Below are positions 8,539 to 19,560 of a stretch of 64,000 nt of DNA, piece by piece. The notes beneath the pieces are model-generated. The model made no database searches, was not told where the DNA came from, and saw nothing but the letters and a program-made list of their open reading frames with translations. This DNA comes from Aeromicrobium fastidiosum (GTDB lineage Bacteria; Actinomycetota; Actinomycetes; Propionibacteriales; Nocardioidaceae), in assembly GCF_017876595.1 (NCBI RefSeq), contig NZ_JAGIOG010000001.1:2046001-2110000 (forward strand), in the 5' to 3' direction. The translations under genes and the position numbers were made by a program. Positions within the stretch are counted from its first letter, which is position 1. Each line of letters starts with the position of its first letter.

Positions 8539-9324
8539 TCAGAAGGCAGGTCGGACGAAGGCGGACGTCACGTGCGGTCCGCCGACGAAGGCGTTCTCCA
8601 CGTCGTCCTCGGGGCGGAGGGGGATCGAGCCGGCGAAGCGCTCGGCATCGTCCTGCGGGTCGAAGCCGATCGCGCGGCCGGGCTCGAGATCCCACCAGCC
8701 CCGGGTGTTGGCGCTGACGCCGTGCACGACGGTGTACCCCGGAGCGGGCTGCCCGATCGCGGCGTCGACCATGCGCACGGCGTCGGCCGGCGACAACCAC
8801 GTCGAGAGCTGTCGGACGGTCTCGGGTGCGTCGGCGAACGTCCCGATGCGCATCGCGACGGCGCTGACCGCGAACCGGTCGACGTAGAGGCTGAGCAGCG
8901 CCTCGGCGGCCACCTTGGCGGTGCCGTAGAACGTGTCGGGTCGGGGACGCACCGACGTCGTCAGTGGCGCGCCGCTCGGCGTCCGCCCCACCGCGTGGTT
9001 GCTGCTCGCGTAGGCCATGCGGTCGACGCCGTGGCGGAGCATGGCCTCCAGCAGGCTGGCCGTCGTGTGCGCGTGCGACTCGAGGGCGGCGGGCAGGGAG
9101 TCCTCGTCGGGGTTGCCGGCGAGGTGGACGACGGCGTCGACGCCGTGAACGGCACGATCCGCCGTCTCCTGGTCGAGGCAGTCGCCGACCATCCAGTCGT
9201 GCTCGTATCCTGCCGCGGGCTGCTCGACCAGGTCGAGACCCCGCAGGTCGTGGCCGAGATCGGCGAGGCCCCGGCCGAGCGCTCGTCCGATCGACCCGGC
9301 CGCGCCCGTGACGAGGACCTTCAT
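8539..9324 (-). CDS. NAD-dependent epimerase/dehydratase, uronate-dehydrogenase-like SDR
   Basis: This 261-residue extended SDR has an N-terminal Rossmann motif (TGAAGSIG), YGTAK as the catalytic YxxxK, and the segments HLAGNPDED, RPRPDTFYG and STWLSPADAVRMV. These segments resemble uronate dehydrogenases, which oxidise glucuronate/galacturonate. The enzyme class is well supported; the substrate is inferred. The ATG at 9324 overlaps the stop of the upstream phosphorylase by one base, so translation is coupled. It is followed 11 bases later by the mutase. Confidence 0.85.
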   Translation of the reverse strand: MKVLVTGAAGSIGRALGRGLADLGHDLRGLDLVEQPAAGYEHDWMVGDCLDQETADRAVHGVDAVVHLAGNPDEDSLPAALESHAHTTASLLEAMLRHGVDRMAYASSNHAVGRTPSGAPLTTSVRPRPDTFYGTAKVAAEALLSLYVDRFAVSAVAMRIGTFADAPETVRQLSTWLSPADAVRMVDAAIGQPAPGYTVVHGVSANTRGWWDLEPGRAIGFDPQDDAERFAGSIPLRPEDDVENAFVGGPHVTSAFVRPAF

Positions 9325-10115
9325 CAGATGCGCGGCAGCACGTCGCCGAGCAGGGTGCCCATACGGGTCGCGGCGGCCTTGCCGGCGGCGAGCACCTCTT
9401 CGTGGTTGAGGGGCTCTCCCGTCATGCCTGCGGCGGCGTTGGTCACCAGCGAGATGCCGAGCACCTCGAGACCCGCGGCGCGGGCGGCGATCGCCTCGAG
9501 CGTCGTCGACATGCCGACCAGGTCGCCGCCGATCGCGCGGACCATGCCGATCTCGGCCGGTGTCTCGTAGTGCGGGCCGGGCAGCTGCACGTAGACGCCC
9601 TCGTCGAGGCTCGGATCGGCCTGCTTGCACAGGGCCCGCAGCCGGCTCGAGTAGAGATCGGTGAGATCGACGAAGTGGGCACCCTCGAGCGGCGAGGTCG
9701 CCGTCATGTTGATGTGGTCGCTGATCAGCACCGGCGTGCCGGGGGACCACGCGGGGTTGAGCCCGCCGCAGCCGTTGGTCAGCACCAGCGTCTTGACGCC
9801 CGCCGCCGCGGCGGTGCGGACGCCGTGCACGACGGCGGCGACGCCCTTGCCCTCGTAGAAGTGGGTGCGGCCGAGGAAGACCAGCAGGCGCTTGTCGCCC
9901 AGGCGCACCGATCGGACGGTGCCGCCGTGCCCCTCGACCGCCGGGGCGCTGAATCCGGGCAGCTCGGCGAGCGGCACCTCGTGCTCGGGTGTGCCGAGGG
10001 CGTCGGCGGCAGGCAGCCAGCCGGACCCCATGACGAGCGCGATGTCGTGGTCGCCTCCACCGGTGCGTTCGCGGAGCGCTTCGGCGGCCTGTCGGGCGAG
10101 TTCGGTGGAGGTCAC
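9324..10115 (-). CDS. punA: Purine nucleoside phosphorylase (PNP class II, trimeric type)
   Basis: This 263-residue enzyme cleaves purine (deoxy)nucleosides with phosphate to the base and (deoxy)ribose 1-phosphate. Motifs in order: MGSGW (phosphate loop), [46 protein letters not shown] and VTNAAAG, all characteristic of the trimeric PNP/MTAP family. The GTG start at 10115 has TAATGT 7 bases upstream and no Shine-Dalgarno, indicating a leaderless message. It heads the operon with the SDR and the phosphosugar mutase, giving a salvage module, and is divergent from a TetR regulator. Confidence 0.93.
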
Positions 10116-10121
10116 CTGCCG

Positions 10122-10128
10122 TACATTA
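10122..10128. promoter_or_regulatory. Overlapping divergent leaderless -10 elements
   Basis: Forward TACATT (10122-10127) lies 6 bases before the tetR ATG. Reverse TAATGT (10128-10123) lies 7 bases before the punA GTG. The two -10 hexamers share five base pairs, and the whole intergenic region is 18 bp. Confidence 0.6.
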
Positions 10129-10133
10129 CGACA

Positions 10134-10694
10134 ATGCCGAAGATCATTGGTGGTTCGCTCGAGCAGCACCGCGAGCAGACCCGTCGCCGGGTCTTCGACG
10201 CCCTGTCGACGCTGTTGGGCCAGCGTTCGTTCGACGCCCTCTCGATGGCAGACCTGGCGGCCGAGGCAGGCATCGGCCGCACCGCGATCTACAACCACTT
10301 CGCCGACAAGGACGCCGTCGTGGTGGCCTTCGCGAGTGCCGAGACCGACCGCTACCTCGCCCGGCTGGATTCCGCGCTCGAGCGCGCCGACGGCCCGGCC
10401 GACGCGATGCGCATCTACGTCACCGAGCACATGGACTCGTCCGAGGAGTTCCACTTCGGCTTCGGCCCCGAGCTGTACGGGATGCTGTCGCGCGAGTCGG
10501 TCGCCGAGATCCGCGAGCACGTCGTCGCGGTCGAGTCGGTGCTGCGCGGCATCATCGACGACGGGGTGGCCGCGGGCGTCTTCACCGTTGACGACGTCAC
10601 GTCGACGATGTCGCTGGTCCACTCGTGCCTGGCGACGCGCCGGGTCGCGCCGGGCGCCGTCGTGACGTTCGTGCTCCGCGCCCTCGGCACCTGA
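10134..10694 (+). CDS. TetR/AcrR-family transcriptional regulator
   Basis: This 186-residue DNA-binding repressor has the TetR helix-turn-helix at about 38-62 ([19 protein letters not shown], followed by ADKDAVV). The C-terminal helical domain is unassigned as to ligand ([30 protein letters not shown]). It is divergent from the phosphorylase operon and its -10 element overlaps that operon's -10, so it may repress the salvage operon and itself (inference). The ATG at 10134 is chosen because TACATT lies 6 bases upstream; longer forward frames read antisense through the phosphorylase. Confidence 0.9.
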
Positions 10695-10707
10695 CCCCCC
10701 GGGACCG

Positions 10708-10764
10708 CGAGTGGCGCAGTTCGGTGATTCTGGGACGGCGTGTCGCGCCGAACTGCGCCACTCG
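10708..10764. repeat. Long-arm inverted repeat between convergent genes
   Basis: Two perfect 17-base arms (cgagtggcgcagttcgg and its complement, 10708-10724 and 10748-10764) flank a 23-base centre. A partial third copy of the arm (tgcgccactcg) follows at about 10773. It lies between tetR and the convergent haem operon and may act as a bidirectional terminator or a cruciform. Confidence 0.6.
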
Positions 10765-10806
10765 AACCCCGGTTTGCGCCACTCGGCGGACGTCGTGCGG
10801 ACGCAG

Positions 10807-10860: not shown

Positions 10861-11919
10861 CTACTTGGTGACCTTGAAGGTCCCGGCAGGCAGCGTCAGG
10901 GTGCGGGCGAAGCTCGCGTTGCCCAGGTACTTCACCGACACGGTCCACTTGCCCTTGGCGAGCTTGGGGATCGTGACGACGCGCGACCCGGTCGAGACGT
11001 AGGCCGTCTTGACCTTGGTCTTGTGGCCCTTCTGCTTGAAGGTGACCTTGACCTGGCCCGTGACAGCGGCACCGGTCGACGACGTGAGGGTGACCGTGGT
11101 CTTGCCGGTCTTCTTGGTCGTCGGCTTCGTGGTGCTGCCGCGCTTGATCGACGTGATCTTGGCAGGGGCGGCGGCGGGCTTCGGAGCAGTCTTGGCGATC
11201 GCCGTGGCGGTGAACGGTGACGGTGCCTTGTTGTCGTTGCTGTTCGACGTCTGGTAGAAGAACGCACCCACGCCGGCCGGCTTCAGGAAGGTGATGAAGG
11301 CCGGGTCCCAGCTCTTGCCCTCCGTCGGACGGTTGGCGGTCGTGCCGTAGCCGGCAGCGTCCGAAGCGGTGGTGTCGCTGAAGGGTGTCTGCACTCCGGC
11401 CCAGTTGGGCGTCCGCGTCAGCGAGCGCAGGTTGCCGCTGGTCGTCCAGTCGGCACCCGACGCTGCGGTGCTGAACGTCGTCAGGTTGACGCGCTGGGGT
11501 CCTCCCGCGGTGGGCGACGGAACGCTGAGGGTCCACGAGACGTCGGCGGAGATCGTTCCCTTGCCGGCCGCGTCGACCGACACCGTGGGCTTGGCGAGGG
11601 TGATCGTGTACTGGTCGTGGCCACCCATCGTGATGGATCCCTCGTACGTCACCGAGGCGATGCCGGTGGCCGGGTCGACCGAGCCGACGCCGTTCGGGAA
11701 CGTCACGGTGCGATCGGTCTCGACCGCGCCGCCGGCGACCGAGTGGTCGGCCAGCTGGCCGGACTGACCCGTCGCGGCAGCGTAGGTGGAGATCTTCCAG
11801 GTCAGCGACGGGGACGCGACCTCAGCTGCCTGTGCGGGGGCAGCCAGGGCGAGCCCGGAGGTGACGACGGCCGCGGAGACGAGGCCGGCGGCGGCTCGCC
11901 GCGCGATGGTGATGGACAT
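10861..11919 (-). CDS. HtaA-domain secreted haem-binding protein with Ig-like C-terminus
   Basis: This 352-residue exported protein has a signal peptide (1-32, ending APAQAAE), an HtaA-like domain from about 35 to 235 ([45 protein letters not shown]) and a linker. A Lys/Thr-rich Ig-like module covers about 255-352 ([30 protein letters not shown]). HtaA domains bind haem in corynebacterial uptake systems. It is the most divergent of the three HtaA paralogues here. There is no transmembrane anchor or sorting signal, so it may be released or held by the C-terminal module. It is the last gene of the haem operon; AAAGG precedes the ATG. Confidence 0.85.
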
Positions 11920-14648: not shown

Positions 14649-15777
14649 GCGCGGCCTCCCCGGTGGCGGGTGCTGCGGCGGAGGCCTTGCGACGTCGGTG
14701 GATCGTGCGGAAGCGGACCGTCGCGAACGTCACGGCCCCGAGCAGGGCAACGAGGGTGAGGCCCAGGAACGCGTACGGCAGCCAGTCGGGTGCGCCAGTC
14801 GAGTCATCGGCGGCAGTAGGGACGCTCGACCGGTCGGCCGCCACCGGGAAGTTGACGGTGGGCGTGGCACCCGAGGCGGCCCCCATGAGCTTGAGCACGT
14901 GGGTGCCGGCGCTGGTGCCCTCGGGCAGCTGGAGCACACCGGCGATCTCACCGGACGGTCCGGCGCTGAGCGGGCCGACGGCGGCGCGCCCGTCGTCGAG
15001 CGTCGCCACGACCTGTTCGCCGGGGGTGAAGCCGCTGCCCGTGAACGACAGCACCCGGCCGACGACGGCGGTGCTGGGATCGACCACTGCGGCGGGCGGA
15101 GCGGCCGGAGCCGAAGGAGCGGCGGACGCGGTCGGTGACTCCGGCGCGACGGGCGCGGCACCCGAGCCGGCACCGGCGGCTGGGTCCGGCGAGGTCGCCG
15201 ACGCCGCAGGCGCCTTCGTCCCGGCTCCCGCCGCGAACGAGAGCGGCGTGAACGTCTCGTTGCTGCCGTTCTTGACGCCGTGCGCACCGATCGTGATGAC
15301 GCCGCAGGTCACGGCCGTGCAGTCGACCGTGACGGTCTTGCCGGCCCGGTCGACGGTCTTGAACGTCGCACCGGGGACCGTCAGCTGCGTCGACCAGGTG
15401 CCGTCGGCCTTGATCGTCCCGCCGTTGGCCGATGAAGCGGTGTCGCTGCCCGGGAAGGCCACGAACCGCTGGAAGCCCTGGTTGTTCTTGCTCTCGCTGT
15501 CGGGCACGTAGCGGTAGTTGGTGCCCACCTGGCCGCCCTTGCTGGGACGCCACGTGCCGCTGACCGTGCCGAAGAAGACGTAGATGCCGCCATGGCCGCC
15601 CTTGATCGACTGGAAGCCCGAACCGCTGACCTCGAGCGTCGTGGCGTAGGTCGGATCGGCCTTCGCGGCACCCTGGCCGTTGTCGATGCTGACCCGCGCG
15701 GCAGCCTGGGCCGGTGACGGGATCAGCAGCGCGCTCGCGCAGAGCGTCGTGATGGTCAGGAGAGCACGGACGCGCAT
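14638..15777 (-). CDS. Exported, membrane-anchored Ig-like (neocarzinostatin-fold-like) protein of the haem operon
   Basis: This 379-residue protein has a signal peptide (1-26, ending SPAQAAA). A beta-rich domain (about 27-195) contains LEVSGSGFQ, GGIYVFFG and a Cys pair in TVDCTAVTCGVITIGAHG followed by SNETFTPLSF. An Ala/Pro linker leads to a second Ig-like segment (about 238-330, VLSFTGSGFTPGEQVVATL). A transmembrane helix (about 338-358) and a basic tail end the protein. Position between hmuV and the HtaA genes, and overlap with both neighbours, argue for a role in haem capture similar to HtaB/HtaC-type accessory proteins (inference). The fold resemblance to neocarzinostatin-family domains is tentative. 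Confidence 0.7.
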   Translation of the reverse strand: MRVRALLTITTLCASALLIPSPAQAAARVSIDNGQGAAKADPTYATTLEVSGSGFQSIKGGHGGIYVFFGTVSGTWRPSKGGQVGTNYRYVPDSESKNNQGFQRFVAFPGSDTASSANGGTIKADGTWSTQLTVPGATFKTVDRAGKTVTVDCTAVTCGVITIGAHGVKNGSNETFTPLSFAAGAGTKAPAASATSPDPAAGAGSGAAPVAPESPTASAAPSAPAAPPAAVVDPSTAVVGRVLSFTGSGFTPGEQVVATLDDGRAAVGPLSAGPSGEIAGVLQLPEGTSAGTHVLKLMGAASGATPTVNFPVAADRSSVPTAADDSTGAPDWLPYAFLGLTLVALLGAVTFATVRFRTIHRRRKASAAAPATGEAAHAL

Positions 15778-16556
15778 GGGTCCTCCTCGGTGAGGGCGAT
15801 CAGGTGGGGGAGGACGACGAGGCGTCCGTGGTGGTCGACGACGTCGACGGGATGTCCGTAGACCTCGCCGAGCACGTCGGGCGTCATGACCTCGCGGGGT
15901 GGGCCGTCGGCGCGCAGGCGTCCGTCGGCGAGCATGCAGATGCGGTCGGCGTGCGCCGCGGCGACCGTGAGGTCGTGCAGCACCGCCACGACGGCGTGAC
16001 CGTCGGCCGCCAGCCGGCGCGCCTCCGAGAGCACCTGCTCCTGGTGGCGGATGTCGAGGGCCGCGGTCGGCTCGTCGAGCAGCACGACCGAGGTCTGCTG
16101 CGCGAGCACCCGGGCGAACGACGTGCGGGCCTTCTCGCCGCCCGACAGGGTCGGGAACGACCGGTCGGCCAGGCCCAGCACGTCGGTGCGCTGCATCGCC
16201 TCGGCGACCACGAGGTCGTCGAGGTCCTCCTCGGGCAGCCGTGCCCAGGGAGCGCGCCCCATGCGGACGACGTCGACCGCGCGGAACCCGAAGGCGAGCC
16301 GCTGCTCCTGGGGCAGCACCGCACGCTGGCGGGCCAGGGCGGCGACCTTCCAGCGGTGCAGCTCGACGCCGTCGAGGGTGGCCTGACCCGAGGTCGGCGT
16401 GATGTCGCCCGACATGACGCTGAGCAGCGTCGTCTTGCCGGCGCCGTTGGGGCCGACGAGGGCGACGAGCTCGCCGGGGACGACCTCGAGGCTGACGCCG
16501 TGCAGGATCGGGTGTCCACCCAGGTCGGCCGAGACGTCGGTCAACGCGAGAGTCAT
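15756..16556 (-). CDS. hmuV: Haem ABC transporter ATP-binding protein
   Basis: This 266-residue cytoplasmic ATPase powers haem import. It has Walker A GPNGAGKTT (about 34-42), a Q-loop in LPQEQRLAF, signature LSGGEKAR, Walker B VVLLDEPTAALD and the switch His in VLHDLT. Length and motif spacing are those of iron-siderophore/haem importer ATPases (HmuV/FecE type). The ATG at 16556 overlaps the end of the permease gene by 4 bases. Its 3' end overlaps the following exported-protein gene by 22 bases, so the whole operon is tightly coupled. Confidence 0.94.
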   Translation of the reverse strand: MTLALTDVSADLGGHPILHGVSLEVVPGELVALVGPNGAGKTTLLSVMSGDITPTSGQATLDGVELHRWKVAALARQRAVLPQEQRLAFGFRAVDVVRMGRAPWARLPEEDLDDLVVAEAMQRTDVLGLADRSFPTLSGGEKARTSFARVLAQQTSVVLLDEPTAALDIRHQEQVLSEARRLAADGHAVVAVLHDLTVAAAHADRICMLADGRLRADGPPREVMTPDVLGEVYGHPVDVVDHHGRLVVLPHLIALTEEDPCASVLS

Positions 16557-17653
16557 GCCCAGCCTCCCGCCGTCTTGCGGGTGCGCCGCAGCAGCCAGAA
16601 GAAGAACGGGCCGCCGACCAACGAAGTGAGCATGCCGATCGGCAGGTCGGCCCCGGTGACGGCCGTGCGGGCGATCAGGTCGGCGCCCAGCAGCAGGACC
16701 GAGCCCGCGAGGGCGCTGGCCGGCACGAGCACGCGGTGACCGGGTCCGACGAGCATCCGGATGAGGTGCGGCACGACGAGGCCGACGAAGGCGATGATGC
16801 CGGCGAACGACACCGCCGCCGCCGTGAGCAGGGCGACCAGGACGATCGCGACGAGGCGCAGCCGCTCGACGTCGATGCCGACGTGCCGTGCTGCCCGGTC
16901 GCCAAGCGCCAGCACGTCGAGCCGGCGGGCCATCAGCATCGATCCCACCAGGCCCACCGCGACGAGCGGGGCGACGACACCGACGTACTCCCACCTGCTG
17001 CCGTTGAGGCTGCCGAGCTGCCAGAACACGATCTGCTCGCGCTCCTGGGTGTCGCCGAGGAAGATCATCAGCGCCAGCCCCGACGCGCACACCGCATTGA
17101 CCGCGATGCCGGTCAGCACCAGCGTCACGACCTCGGTGCGTCCATCGGCCCGGGAGAGGGCGTAGACCAGCAGGGTCGTCACGAGGCCGCCGACGAAGGC
17201 GAACAGCGCCGTCGTCCACGACCCGATCAGCTGGATCTGGAAGACGATCACGATCGCGGCGGCGAAGGCGGCACCCGTCGACACGCCGACGACGCTGGGC
17301 TCGGCCAGCGGGTTGCCGAAGATGCCCTGCATCAGCGCGCCGGCCGTCGACAGGGCGGCACCGACGATGATCGCGAGCGCGATGCGCGGGAACCGCACCT
17401 GCCACAGCGTGTTGTCGCCCTGGGGGTGCGTCGGCATCGTCCCCCAGTCGAGCCCCACGCGGTGCATCAGGGAGCCCCAGACCTCGCTCGCCGGGATCGC
17501 CAGCTGACCGCGTCCGGCGGCGTAGACCGTGAGCACGGCGAGCGCGACGCCGAGCACGACGAACAGCGCCGTCGCGCGGGCACCGTGACGGCGGGGGAGC
17601 GGCGGAGTCGTGTCGGCGACCGGCGCGGCCCGTGGGGGCAGCGTGGCTGTCAC
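16553..17653 (-). CDS. hmuU: Haem ABC transporter permease (FecCD family)
   Basis: This 366-residue permease has about nine to ten hydrophobic helices and the FecCD/BtuC signatures GALMQGIFGNPLAEPSVVGV, GIAVNAVCASGL, FAGIIAFVGLVVPHLIRML and LPIGMLTSLVGGPFFFWLL. It moves haem across the cytoplasmic membrane together with HmuV and HmuT. A short Pro-rich N-terminal cytoplasmic tail precedes the first helix. The GTG start at 17653 overlaps the hmuT stop (GTGA). Confidence 0.94.
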   Translation of the reverse strand: MTATLPPRAAPVADTTPPLPRRHGARATALFVVLGVALAVLTVYAAGRGQLAIPASEVWGSLMHRVGLDWGTMPTHPQGDNTLWQVRFPRIALAIIVGAALSTAGALMQGIFGNPLAEPSVVGVSTGAAFAAAIVIVFQIQLIGSWTTALFAFVGGLVTTLLVYALSRADGRTEVVTLVLTGIAVNAVCASGLALMIFLGDTQEREQIVFWQLGSLNGSRWEYVGVVAPLVAVGLVGSMLMARRLDVLALGDRAARHVGIDVERLRLVAIVLVALLTAAAVSFAGIIAFVGLVVPHLIRMLVGPGHRVLVPASALAGSVLLLGADLIARTAVTGADLPIGMLTSLVGGPFFFWLLRRTRKTAGGWA

Positions 17654-18759
17654 TGGGCCGACTCCGGGGCGTAGATCGCGACGGCGAGCGAGTTGAGCAC
17701 CTCGGCCGTCCGCGGTCCGAAGCTCAGCACCTGGCTGTCCTGCATGTCGACGATGCGCCGGTTCTGACCGGCCGGGGTGTTGGCGATCGCGGGCAGGCGG
17801 TCGAGCAGCCCGTCGACGCCGCCGACCGACTCGAGCCCCTTGCTCATCATGATGATGAGATCGGGCTGCGCCGCGATGATGGCCTCGTCGTTGACGGGCT
17901 TCATGCCGTTCCAGCCGATCTCGCGGGTCACGTCGTAGCCGCCGACCGCATCGATCAGGCCGTCGGCCCCGGAGCCCTCGCCGAACATGTAGTAGACGCC
18001 GGCCTGGCCGCGCACGTACAGGAAGACCATCCGCAGCTTGTCCTGGACGGCCGTGGGTGCGACCTTCGCGATCGCGGCCTTTGTGGCGGCGACCTCCTTC
18101 TCGATCCGCTGGCCCAGCTGCTTGCCCTCGGCGGGGACGCCCAGGGCGTCTGCGACCTCCTGCGTCAGCGACGAGACGTTGTCGAGGCTGCGCTGGGAGT
18201 CGGTCACGACGACGGGGATGCCCGAGTCACGCATCTGCAGGATGACGTCCCACGGACCCAGCGACGTGTCGGTGAGGATCACGGTGGGGTCGAGCTCGAG
18301 GATCGACTCGGCGTTGAGGTCGTGGCCGTTGCTCGTCACGAGCGGGAGCTTCTTGGCCTCGTCGAACTGGGTCGAGACGTCACGGCCCACGACTTGGTCC
18401 CCGAGCCCGAGCTCGAACACGGTCTGCGAGAGCGTGCCGTAGATGTCGAGCGCGAGGATGCGGCTCGTGTCGGTGATCGTCACCTTGGTGCCCTGGGCGT
18501 CGGTCACCGTGACGGGGAGGGTCTGCTGCGGCGAGGTCGTGACGGGCGTGATGGAGCTGCCGGCCAGCGAGGCGTGTGTCTCGCCGGAGTACGACTTCGG
18601 GTCGTCGAGCACCGTTGCCGAGGCGAGGTCGACGGCGGCGCGGTCGGTGCCACCGTGCGCCGTGCCGCCACCCGAGCCGGCCCCGCAGGCGGCGACGACG
18701 GAGACCGACAGGAGGACGGCCGCGAGACGGCGGGCCGCGGAGAAGACAGGGCGGGGCAC
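17650..18759 (-). CDS. hmuT: Haem-binding lipoprotein of the ABC importer
   Basis: This 369-residue substrate-binding lipoprotein has a lipobox VAAC with Cys 25 after a 24-residue signal. The two lobes of the iron/haem-binding family II periplasmic fold follow (ILALDIYGTLSQTVFELGLGD, LNAESILELDPTVILTD, YVRGQAGVYYMFGEGSGADGLIDAVGG, NDEAIIAAQPDLIIMM). First gene of the haem operon. The GTG start at 18759 is preceded by GAAGGA. Its promoter region carries two DtxR/IdeR-like boxes, so expression is probably iron-repressed. Confidence 0.93.
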   Translation of the reverse strand: MPRPVFSAARRLAAVLLSVSVVAACGAGSGGGTAHGGTDRAAVDLASATVLDDPKSYSGETHASLAGSSITPVTTSPQQTLPVTVTDAQGTKVTITDTSRILALDIYGTLSQTVFELGLGDQVVGRDVSTQFDEAKKLPLVTSNGHDLNAESILELDPTVILTDTSLGPWDVILQMRDSGIPVVVTDSQRSLDNVSSLTQEVADALGVPAEGKQLGQRIEKEVAATKAAIAKVAPTAVQDKLRMVFLYVRGQAGVYYMFGEGSGADGLIDAVGGYDVTREIGWNGMKPVNDEAIIAAQPDLIIMMSKGLESVGGVDGLLDRLPAIANTPAGQNRRIVDMQDSQVLSFGPRTAEVLNSLAVAIYAPESAQ

Positions 18760-18773
18760 GGTAATCCTTCGGG

Positions 18774-18792
18774 TTAGGTGAGGGTAGGCTAA
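18774..18792. promoter_or_regulatory. DtxR/IdeR-like iron box 1
   Basis: The 19-mer starting TTAGGTGAGG and ending GGCTAA matches the DtxR/IdeR palindrome consensus (TTAGGTTAGSCTAACCTAA) at about 15 of 19 positions. It contains the candidate hmuT -10 (TAGCCT on the minus strand, 18791-18786). Confidence 0.6.
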
Positions 18793-18798
18793 CAGTTC

Positions 18799-18817
18799 TC
18801 AGGGTTGCCTATCCAAA
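18799..18817. promoter_or_regulatory. DtxR/IdeR-like iron box 2
   Basis: The second 19-mer (core AGGGTTGCCTATCCAAA) matches the same consensus at about 14 of 19 positions. It overlaps the candidate hmuT -35 (TTGGAT on the minus strand, 18816-18811). Two boxes 25 bp apart would cover the whole hmuT promoter and lie upstream of the haem oxygenase promoter. Confidence 0.45.
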
Positions 18818-18835
18818 GTGTGACATGGATCATGA

Positions 18836-18870
18836 CATCTTGTCAGAACAAGATGACCGTGTGTCATAAT
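18836..18870 (+). promoter_or_regulatory. Candidate haem oxygenase promoter with internal inverted repeat
   Basis: TTGTCA (18840-18845) and CATAAT (18865-18870) are spaced 19 bases apart, a plausible -35/-10 pair. An 8-bp inverted repeat (catcttgt / acaagatg, 4-base loop, 18836-18855) overlaps the -35 and could be an operator for a second regulator. Both are inferred from sequence only. Confidence 0.4.
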
Positions 18871-18906: not shown

Positions 18907-19560
18907 ATGACCATCACCGCCGAGAGCCCCGCGCCCTCGCTGTCAGCCCTGCTCCGCACTGGATCGCAGGCGGAGCACACCGCCGCCGAGGGATCGAGTT
19001 TCATGTCCGAGCTGCTCGCCGGGCGCATCAACGAGGCCGGCTACGCGCACTTCCTCGGTCTGCTGCGCCGGGTGTACGAAGCCCTCGAGGGCACCGCCGC
19101 CGAGCTGGCGTCCGACCCCGTCGCCTCGGCCGTCATCGACCCGGCCATCGAGCGGCTCGCCGCGATCGACGCGGATCTCGACCACTGGGGACGCGTCGAC
19201 GTCGACAGCCCGGCCACCGACGCCTACGTCGCGCGCATCCGGGAGTCCGCGTCGTGGGGCGGCCTGTTCGTGGCGCACCACTACACGCGCTACCTCGGCG
19301 ACCTCTCGGGCGGACAGGCGATCGGCCGCATCATCAGCCGCGAGTTCGGGCTCGACGGCGTCGGCACGGCGTTCTACGCCTTCGACGAGGTGCCCAAGCC
19401 CAAGCTCTACAAGGACGCCTACCGGGCGCGCCTCGACGCCCTGCCCCTCGACGACGCCGACCGCCAGCGCGTCCTCGACGAGGTCAAGGCCGTCTTCAGC
19501 CTGAATGGCGGCATCTTCGCCGAGATGACGACCCACCTCGACAGGTACTCCCGCCCCTGA
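18907..19560 (+). CDS. hmuO: Haem oxygenase (biliverdin-producing)
   Basis: This 217-residue cytosolic enzyme opens haem to biliverdin, CO and free iron. The proximal His is His24 in QAEHTAAE, and the distal-helix signature YLGDLSGGQAIGRI is intact. FYAFDEV and KPKLYKDAYRARLDAL follow, as in HmuO/HO-1 proteins. The ATG at 18907 follows AGGAG at 7 bases; an in-frame upstream start would add a Cys/Trp-containing extension through the promoter and is rejected. It is divergent from hmuT, completing an import-and-degrade module. Confidence 0.94.
   Translation: MTITAESPAPSLSALLRTGSQAEHTAAEGSSFMSELLAGRINEAGYAHFLGLLRRVYEALEGTAAELASDPVASAVIDPAIERLAAIDADLDHWGRVDVDSPATDAYVARIRESASWGGLFVAHHYTRYLGDLSGGQAIGRIISREFGLDGVGTAFYAFDEVPKPKLYKDAYRARLDALPLDDADRQRVLDEVKAVFSLNGGIFAEMTTHLDRYSRP

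Follow-up and report, generated by a model that had tools for sequence, protein, structure and literature searches.

The 18 bp that separate the divergent genes punA and tetR probably constitute a bidirectional promoter of the housekeeping type, in the commonest configuration known, from which both genes would be expressed without a leader, with tetR belonging to an adjoining heme-acquisition island. Promoters of this kind are already known, and the double leaderless arrangement is a neat extreme of the type and the one special point of the locus. The locus was analyzed within a 64-kb stretch of a 3.93-Mb genome, hereafter called the window. In the proposed arrangement, a pseudo-symmetric TANNNTA core would present a TANNNT hexamer on either strand and direct transcription from opposite start sites (TSSs) about 18 bp apart. 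The promoter would fill the whole intergenic space because both genes are predicted to be leaderless, with start codons on or within one base of their TSSs. RNA polymerase, as we infer its behavior, would bind in one orientation at a time and yield both messages, and its ordinary occupancy would be low enough for the two directions hardly to disturb each other. The punA gene would have a leaderless promoter of its own with or without tetR, while tetR would be part of the heme-acquisition island with its promoter placed on the same core, and its product would most likely act at the heme-oxygenase/hmuT promoter through TGAC-N5-GTCA arrays.

The observed sequence and spacing agreed to the base with the original prediction, which had placed a minus-strand GTG (read as CAC at 10113-10115) and a plus-strand ATG (10134-10136) 18 bp apart and had described two overlapping hexamers between them (Table 1). 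TACATT and TAATGT do have 5 bp in common and lie at 6 nt from the tetR ATG and 7 nt from the punA GTG, respectively. Opposed -10 elements with base pairs in common, as in a bidirectional promoter, are thus present. TSSs predicted from the sequence at 10134 and at 10115 or 10116 fit the short opposite spacing (about 18 bp) of such promoters and, as computed for TSSs at 10134 and 10116, positions -7 and -11 of both promoters are reciprocally identical base pairs. A gap of 17 bp would put both start codons exactly on such predicted TSSs; in the 18-bp form, the punA side must have either a spacing of 7 nt or a leader of 1 nt.

Table 1. Features of the punA/tetR gap and of the adjoining heme island, in window coordinates except for the first line.
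Feature	Position	Strand	Remarks
Window	G000:C1:2046001-2110000		64 kb, within a 3.93-Mb genome
punA, purine-nucleoside phosphorylase	9324..10115	-	GTG start at 10115; above TIGR01698 and PRK08202 cut-offs (profile search); N-terminus fits solved PNP
tetR-family regulator gene	10134..10694	+	ATG start at 10134; above PF00440 cut-off (profile search); first four residues invariant in 18 orthologs
18-bp intergenic region CTGCCGTACATTACGACA	10116..10133	unstranded	Entire space separating both start codons
-10 hexamer TACATT for tetR	10122..10127	+	6 nt before ATG; TANNNT here in 23/23 same-genus loci
-10 hexamer TAATGT for punA	10123..10128	-	7 nt before GTG; TANNNT 6 or 7 nt before start in 45/47 same-genus loci as called
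Shared 5-bp core	10123..10127	unstranded	10123/10127 are reciprocal -11/-7 if the punA TSS is 10116
Imperfect 17-bp dyad TGCCG-TACATTA-CGACA over the core	10117..10133	unstranded	Candidate operator, unproven
HtaA-domain protein, heme island adjoining tetR	10861..11919	-	PF04213 above cut-off
HmuV-like ABC ATPase, heme island	15756..16556	-	PF00005; named by context
HmuU-like permease	16553..17653	-	ORF; named by context and sequence character; matches near tetR in relatives
HmuT-like binding lipoprotein	17650..18759	-	ORF; named by context; matches near tetR in relatives
Double TGAC-N5-GTCA array	18833..18866	unstranded	Candidate TetR operator in the hmuT/heme-oxygenase divergent promoter; associated with presence of tetR
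Heme oxygenase gene	18907..19560	+	64% identical to the G008 protein, which matches PF01126 at E 2.4e-55

The punA start at GTG 10115 is plausible, since residue 4 of its product aligns with residue 9 of an M. tuberculosis-type PNP chain that shares a row with 1g2o. A 498-aa punA frame from GTG 10820 was rejected, as it runs antisense through tetR and the homologs fit the start at 10115. Comparison of TetR with solved structures by sequence returned general TetR proteins only and gave no closer hint.

Leaderless signals were sought in 49 genomes of the same genus, 47 of which carry punA (E <= 1e-60). With a Shine-Dalgarno core defined as at least 4 nt of AGGAGG at positions -18 to -4 and starts taken as called, none was found before tetR in 23 same-genus loci or before punA in 47, and the heme-oxygenase gene of the window, used as a positive control, has AGGAG. 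GGAGGT (10107-10112) was not accepted as the Shine-Dalgarno sequence of tetR because it lies 21 nt before the ATG, outside the scanned range. A TANNNT hexamer stands exactly 6 nt before the tetR start in all 23 head-to-head loci, and 6 nt (21 loci) or 7 nt (24 loci) before the punA start, including copies of punA with no adjacent tetR. By our reading, the two punA exceptions (G024 and G058) fit as well if a visible in-frame GTG or ATG is the start. G016 is counted with the 45 conforming loci, although homology places its PunA start at a codon that is no start codon and the closest ATG in frame falls within the 17-bp gap. Hence a -10 element that puts the TSS on the start codon, combined with no Shine-Dalgarno core, was found for tetR in every head-to-head locus and for punA in 45 of 47 as called, and the start codons of both genes most likely lie on, or within one base of, the predicted TSSs. 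Across 80 named tetR loci, mostly from other genera, TANNNT occurred 6 nt before the start in only 35.

The tetR gene lies head-to-head with punA in 23 of the 47 punA-bearing genomes. Thirteen of these pairs are compact, with a gap of 18 bp in eight and 17 bp in five (G016 included), and all 13 contain TANNNTA, in which the inner triplet is CAT, CCC or AAA and TA..TA is constant. The other ten pairs are split: their promoters are 61-132 bp apart, and both genes retain a separate TANNNT at 6-7 nt from the start codon. The overlap of the -10 elements, being lost in 10 of 23 pairs, is dispensable. On the TetR tree, the compact and split labels need three changes each, and no ancestral state was assigned since the root is unsure. 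The adjacency of regulator and divergent gene is likewise not conserved, as it was seen in the 23 genomes above and at 8 of the 80 named tetR loci. The 47 related genomes, in which the arrangement is conserved, split, or lost, form a natural series for asking whether -10 sharing is regulatory or merely economical packing.

A natural fusion bears on the tetR side of the element. In G029 (locus L155, G029:C1:2884600-2888400), ten tetR-like codons follow an identical CTGCCGTACATTACGACA-ATG and lead in frame into heme oxygenase, for a total of 228 aa, and the fusion protein is 82% identical to the heme oxygenase of the window over 215 aa. No tetR ortholog was found in this genome (best E 4.2e-9), and no match to HmuT, although an empty search alone proves little. 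Compared with relatives, the old heme-oxygenase ATG appears by our reading to be ACG; an internal GTG could still be a start. Because the frame is intact behind an identical element, it suggests, without proving, that the tetR side is a working promoter with a leaderless start.

Downstream of tetR, the window encodes an HtaA-domain protein, further surface proteins, an HmuTUV-type ABC transporter, and heme oxygenase. In all 15 other tetR-bearing genomes examined, which do not include G016 and G001 (too little sequence to judge), hmuTUV and/or heme oxygenase was found within about 8 kb downstream of tetR. This included three genomes (G008, G018, and G031) where tetR is away from punA yet near heme genes; in two of these, G008 and G031, the next match after tetR is heme oxygenase, on the same strand. 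Among five genomes with no tetR, three (G020, G035, and G012) lack the island and carry lpd on the other side of punA, G005 has neither lpd nor the island, and G036 contains hmuTUV and heme oxygenase; lpd was also matched in 8 of 10 further-compared tetR-less loci, three genomes of which overlap with the first five. Within flanks of up to 3 kb at the 80 named tetR loci, a heme-island protein was matched in 27 and PunA in only the eight mentioned. Given this and the linkage in all 15 genomes above, the ties of tetR within the genus are to heme genes, and in general it is no companion of punA. Two observations count against the bidirectional-promoter reading at this point: heme genes were matched in only those 27 loci, and G036 has heme genes without tetR. 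Overall, the locus suggests that heme acquisition in Aeromicrobium-type bacteria and their relatives is under a TetR regulator, for which there is a clear candidate operator. Beside the start of hmuT, the sequence TTAGGTGAGGGTAGGCTAACAG (18770-18800) is an iron-box look-alike, which we take to resemble the DtxR/IdeR box of actinobacteria. Additionally, repeats of the GCGCCACTCG/CGAGTGGCGC type occur downstream of tetR (10700-10800), possibly a terminator or a small repeat family, and similar strings were seen in the flanks of some relatives.

The upstream regions of heme oxygenase in 13 tetR-bearing genomes contain 40 copies of TGACA/TGTCA, compared to a mean of 7.6 (maximum 16) in 500 shuffles, and their commonest half-site arrangement is TGAC-N5-GTCA, with 20 occurrences. 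None of these half-sites was found in the heme-oxygenase upstream region of G036, the one tetR-less genome compared. Double TGAC-N5-GTCA arrays (at most one mismatch) occurred in 17 of 26 genomes with tetR and in 2 of 23 without it (Fisher 4.4e-5), where two of the latter (G063 and G064) were checked for tetR beside punA only and the array position was checked at some sites. The same half-site also precedes tetR in 56 of the 70 named orthologs that belong to neither the Aeromicrobium-type nor the Mumia loci; together these 70 regions hold 100 half-sites, compared to a mean of 12.6 and a maximum of 22 in shuffles, and 52 of the regions have GTCA at -6. The TGACA/TGTCA half-site is therefore probably what TetR reads, and the arrays at the heme-oxygenase/hmuT promoters are most likely its site of action, as predicted from these counts. 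The arrays often repeat at 21 bp, for example in the heme-oxygenase upstream regions of L161, L164, L172, and L173, among others. A dyad of the punA/tetR type was considered for the hmuT/heme-oxygenase region and rejected, as one site with one mismatch was found, the two sites seen were reached by 4 of 100 shuffles, and the repeat there is TGAC-N5-GTCA.

A promoter alone does not explain why the arms of the punA/tetR core are symmetric. In a rival reading, the gap would be a promoter-operator, where a TetR dimer on a 17-bp dyad (TGYCR-TANNNTA-YGRCA) over the core silences tetR and punA together, a proposal that we hold tentatively and consider somewhat unlikely. The arms match the dyad at 5, 5, 4, 4, 4, and 3 of five positions in the six distinct compact punA/tetR sequences, compared to a mean of 1.91 and a maximum of 3 at 43 other 17-bp common-core sites of the genus, which are hand-picked unique sequences and include many orthologs. 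A symmetric double change was observed between G016 (TGTCA..TGACA) and G013 (TGTCG..CGACA), and the half-site is the one that recurs upstream of heme oxygenase and of tetR as described above. The exact dyad was found in 16 of 49 genomes, once each and always at punA, while the reversed control was found in none of the 49. However, it was equally frequent with tetR (9 of 26 genomes) and without it (7 of 23; Fisher p = 1), so that its presence does not track the regulator and the dyad was not adopted as a proven TetR operator. It was also missing from all ten split pairs, four of the 13 compact pairs have it in inexact form only, and the half-sites of the TGAC-N5-GTCA arrays face the opposite way to those of the dyad, with a different spacing. 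The dyad may still be a TetR operator.

Both ideas could be combined in a minimal element bounded by two start codons, where one 17/18-bp stretch would serve as both leaderless promoters and as the operator of its own product; TetR would silence both genes, and the orientation of polymerase would partition the remainder. This combination is unlikely in our judgment. If it were true, promoters of this form would make up a recurrent class in the genus, with two further pairs in the window's genome, and they could capture new genes by deletion, as the heme oxygenase of G029 took the start of tetR.

The original prediction had read the shared core as a switch built into the promoters of the regulator and of the salvage operon, in which occupancy in one direction excludes the other and sets tetR and punA in opposition even without the repressor. 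The common core and the leaderless-type starts on both sides were borne out, and the switch was not. Its premise that both promoters cannot open at once is sound, as they have base pairs in common and steric exclusion of two RNA polymerases at bidirectional promoters is described in passages of published work (PMC12825309, PMC10268837). Competition has also been documented in E. coli, at PacrA/acrR, the promoter of a TetR-family gene (PMC12825309). According to the same source, however, competition arises only when one direction is strongly activated, and all five E. coli bidirectional promoters examined had a basal activity too low for it (PMC12825309). Moreover, prpD of M. tuberculosis and the divergently transcribed regulator gene beside it are both leaderless and are described as rising together in starvation (PMC3898074). 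Because of this low basal competition and the joint rise at prpD, and because 10 of 23 pairs have lost the overlap and tetR is linked to heme genes, a punA/tetR switch appears very unlikely.

The combined pattern CAY-N6-TANNNTA-N5-RTG had one site in the 64 kb, compared to none in 100 dinucleotide shuffles. In the 49 same-genus genomes, the 17-bp pattern had 92 sites (23 for the reversed control) and the 18-bp pattern 120 (57 for the control), while a spacing of 23 bp, with three extra bases on each side, had one (21 for the control); these counts are inflated by shared ancestry, as many sites are orthologs and not independent. No excess of the 17-bp pattern was found class-wide, with 177 sites in 197 genomes against 199 for the reversed control. 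Eight pattern sites occur in the window's genome, three with long ORFs on both sides and five with a long ORF on one side only. Besides punA/tetR, the two-sided sites are a TrmB-like methyltransferase/DinB_2 pair and a SpoU methylase/PBP pair (L141 and L144, around 206,398 and 2,858,770), each with an 18-bp gap and a TANNNTA core; similar sites recur in other genomes of the genus. In two other members of the class, what is seemingly one gene pair (L181:2001-2023 and L182:2001-2023; YkgJ-like and dienelactone-hydrolase-like, named by eye) has a 17-bp core forming a perfect palindrome that includes both GTG codons, with arms that differ symmetrically between the two. Coincidence, in which genuine promoter activity exists in a single direction and transcription of the other gene begins further upstream, would agree with the five one-sided sites and the lack of a class-wide excess, but it is extremely improbable, as both hexamers hold their distance to both starts in relatives and the split genes keep theirs.

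In heme-acquisition loci of Actinobacteria (HtaA/HmuTUV/heme oxygenase), uptake and degradation genes occur with a regulator close by. The window follows this plan, except that the regulator is a TetR protein with a candidate TGAC-N5-GTCA array. A resemblance was also found to the TetR autorepressors of the AcrR type (PMC12825309), as tetR is head-to-head with its neighbor over one promoter, and regulators are sometimes found on one side of a bidirectional promoter, as in acrR/acrA (PMC12825309). Unlike that system, punA is not the conserved partner of tetR, and heme genes are its commoner neighbors.

In M. tuberculosis, leaderless promoters have a TANNNT whose centre lies 7-12 bp before a TSS on the start codon, with no -35 motif found, and closely placed divergent promoters are called common there (PMC3898074). 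The punA/tetR promoters share the TANNNT, the predicted TSS on the start codon, and a divergent regulator as at prpD; in the M. tuberculosis passages, no statement of a common -10 was found (PMC3898074). The commonest bacterial bidirectional promoter has a common -10, opposite TSSs 18 bp apart, and reciprocal base pairs at -7 and -11 (PMC10268837, PMC12825309). The word leaderless does not appear in the main text of either paper, and a literature search, with most subscription papers outside its scope, returned no title or abstract opening on a leaderless pair that shares a -10, which does not prove absence. The bidirectional promoter proposed for punA/tetR is like those of Warman and Grainger in its common -10, predicted TSSs about 18 bp apart, and reciprocal -7/-11 positions. 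It is unlike them in that both genes appear leaderless, with start codons on the predicted TSSs and a gap of only 17-18 bp, and would thus be a very compact, protein-coding version of the symmetric -10 promoter already known.
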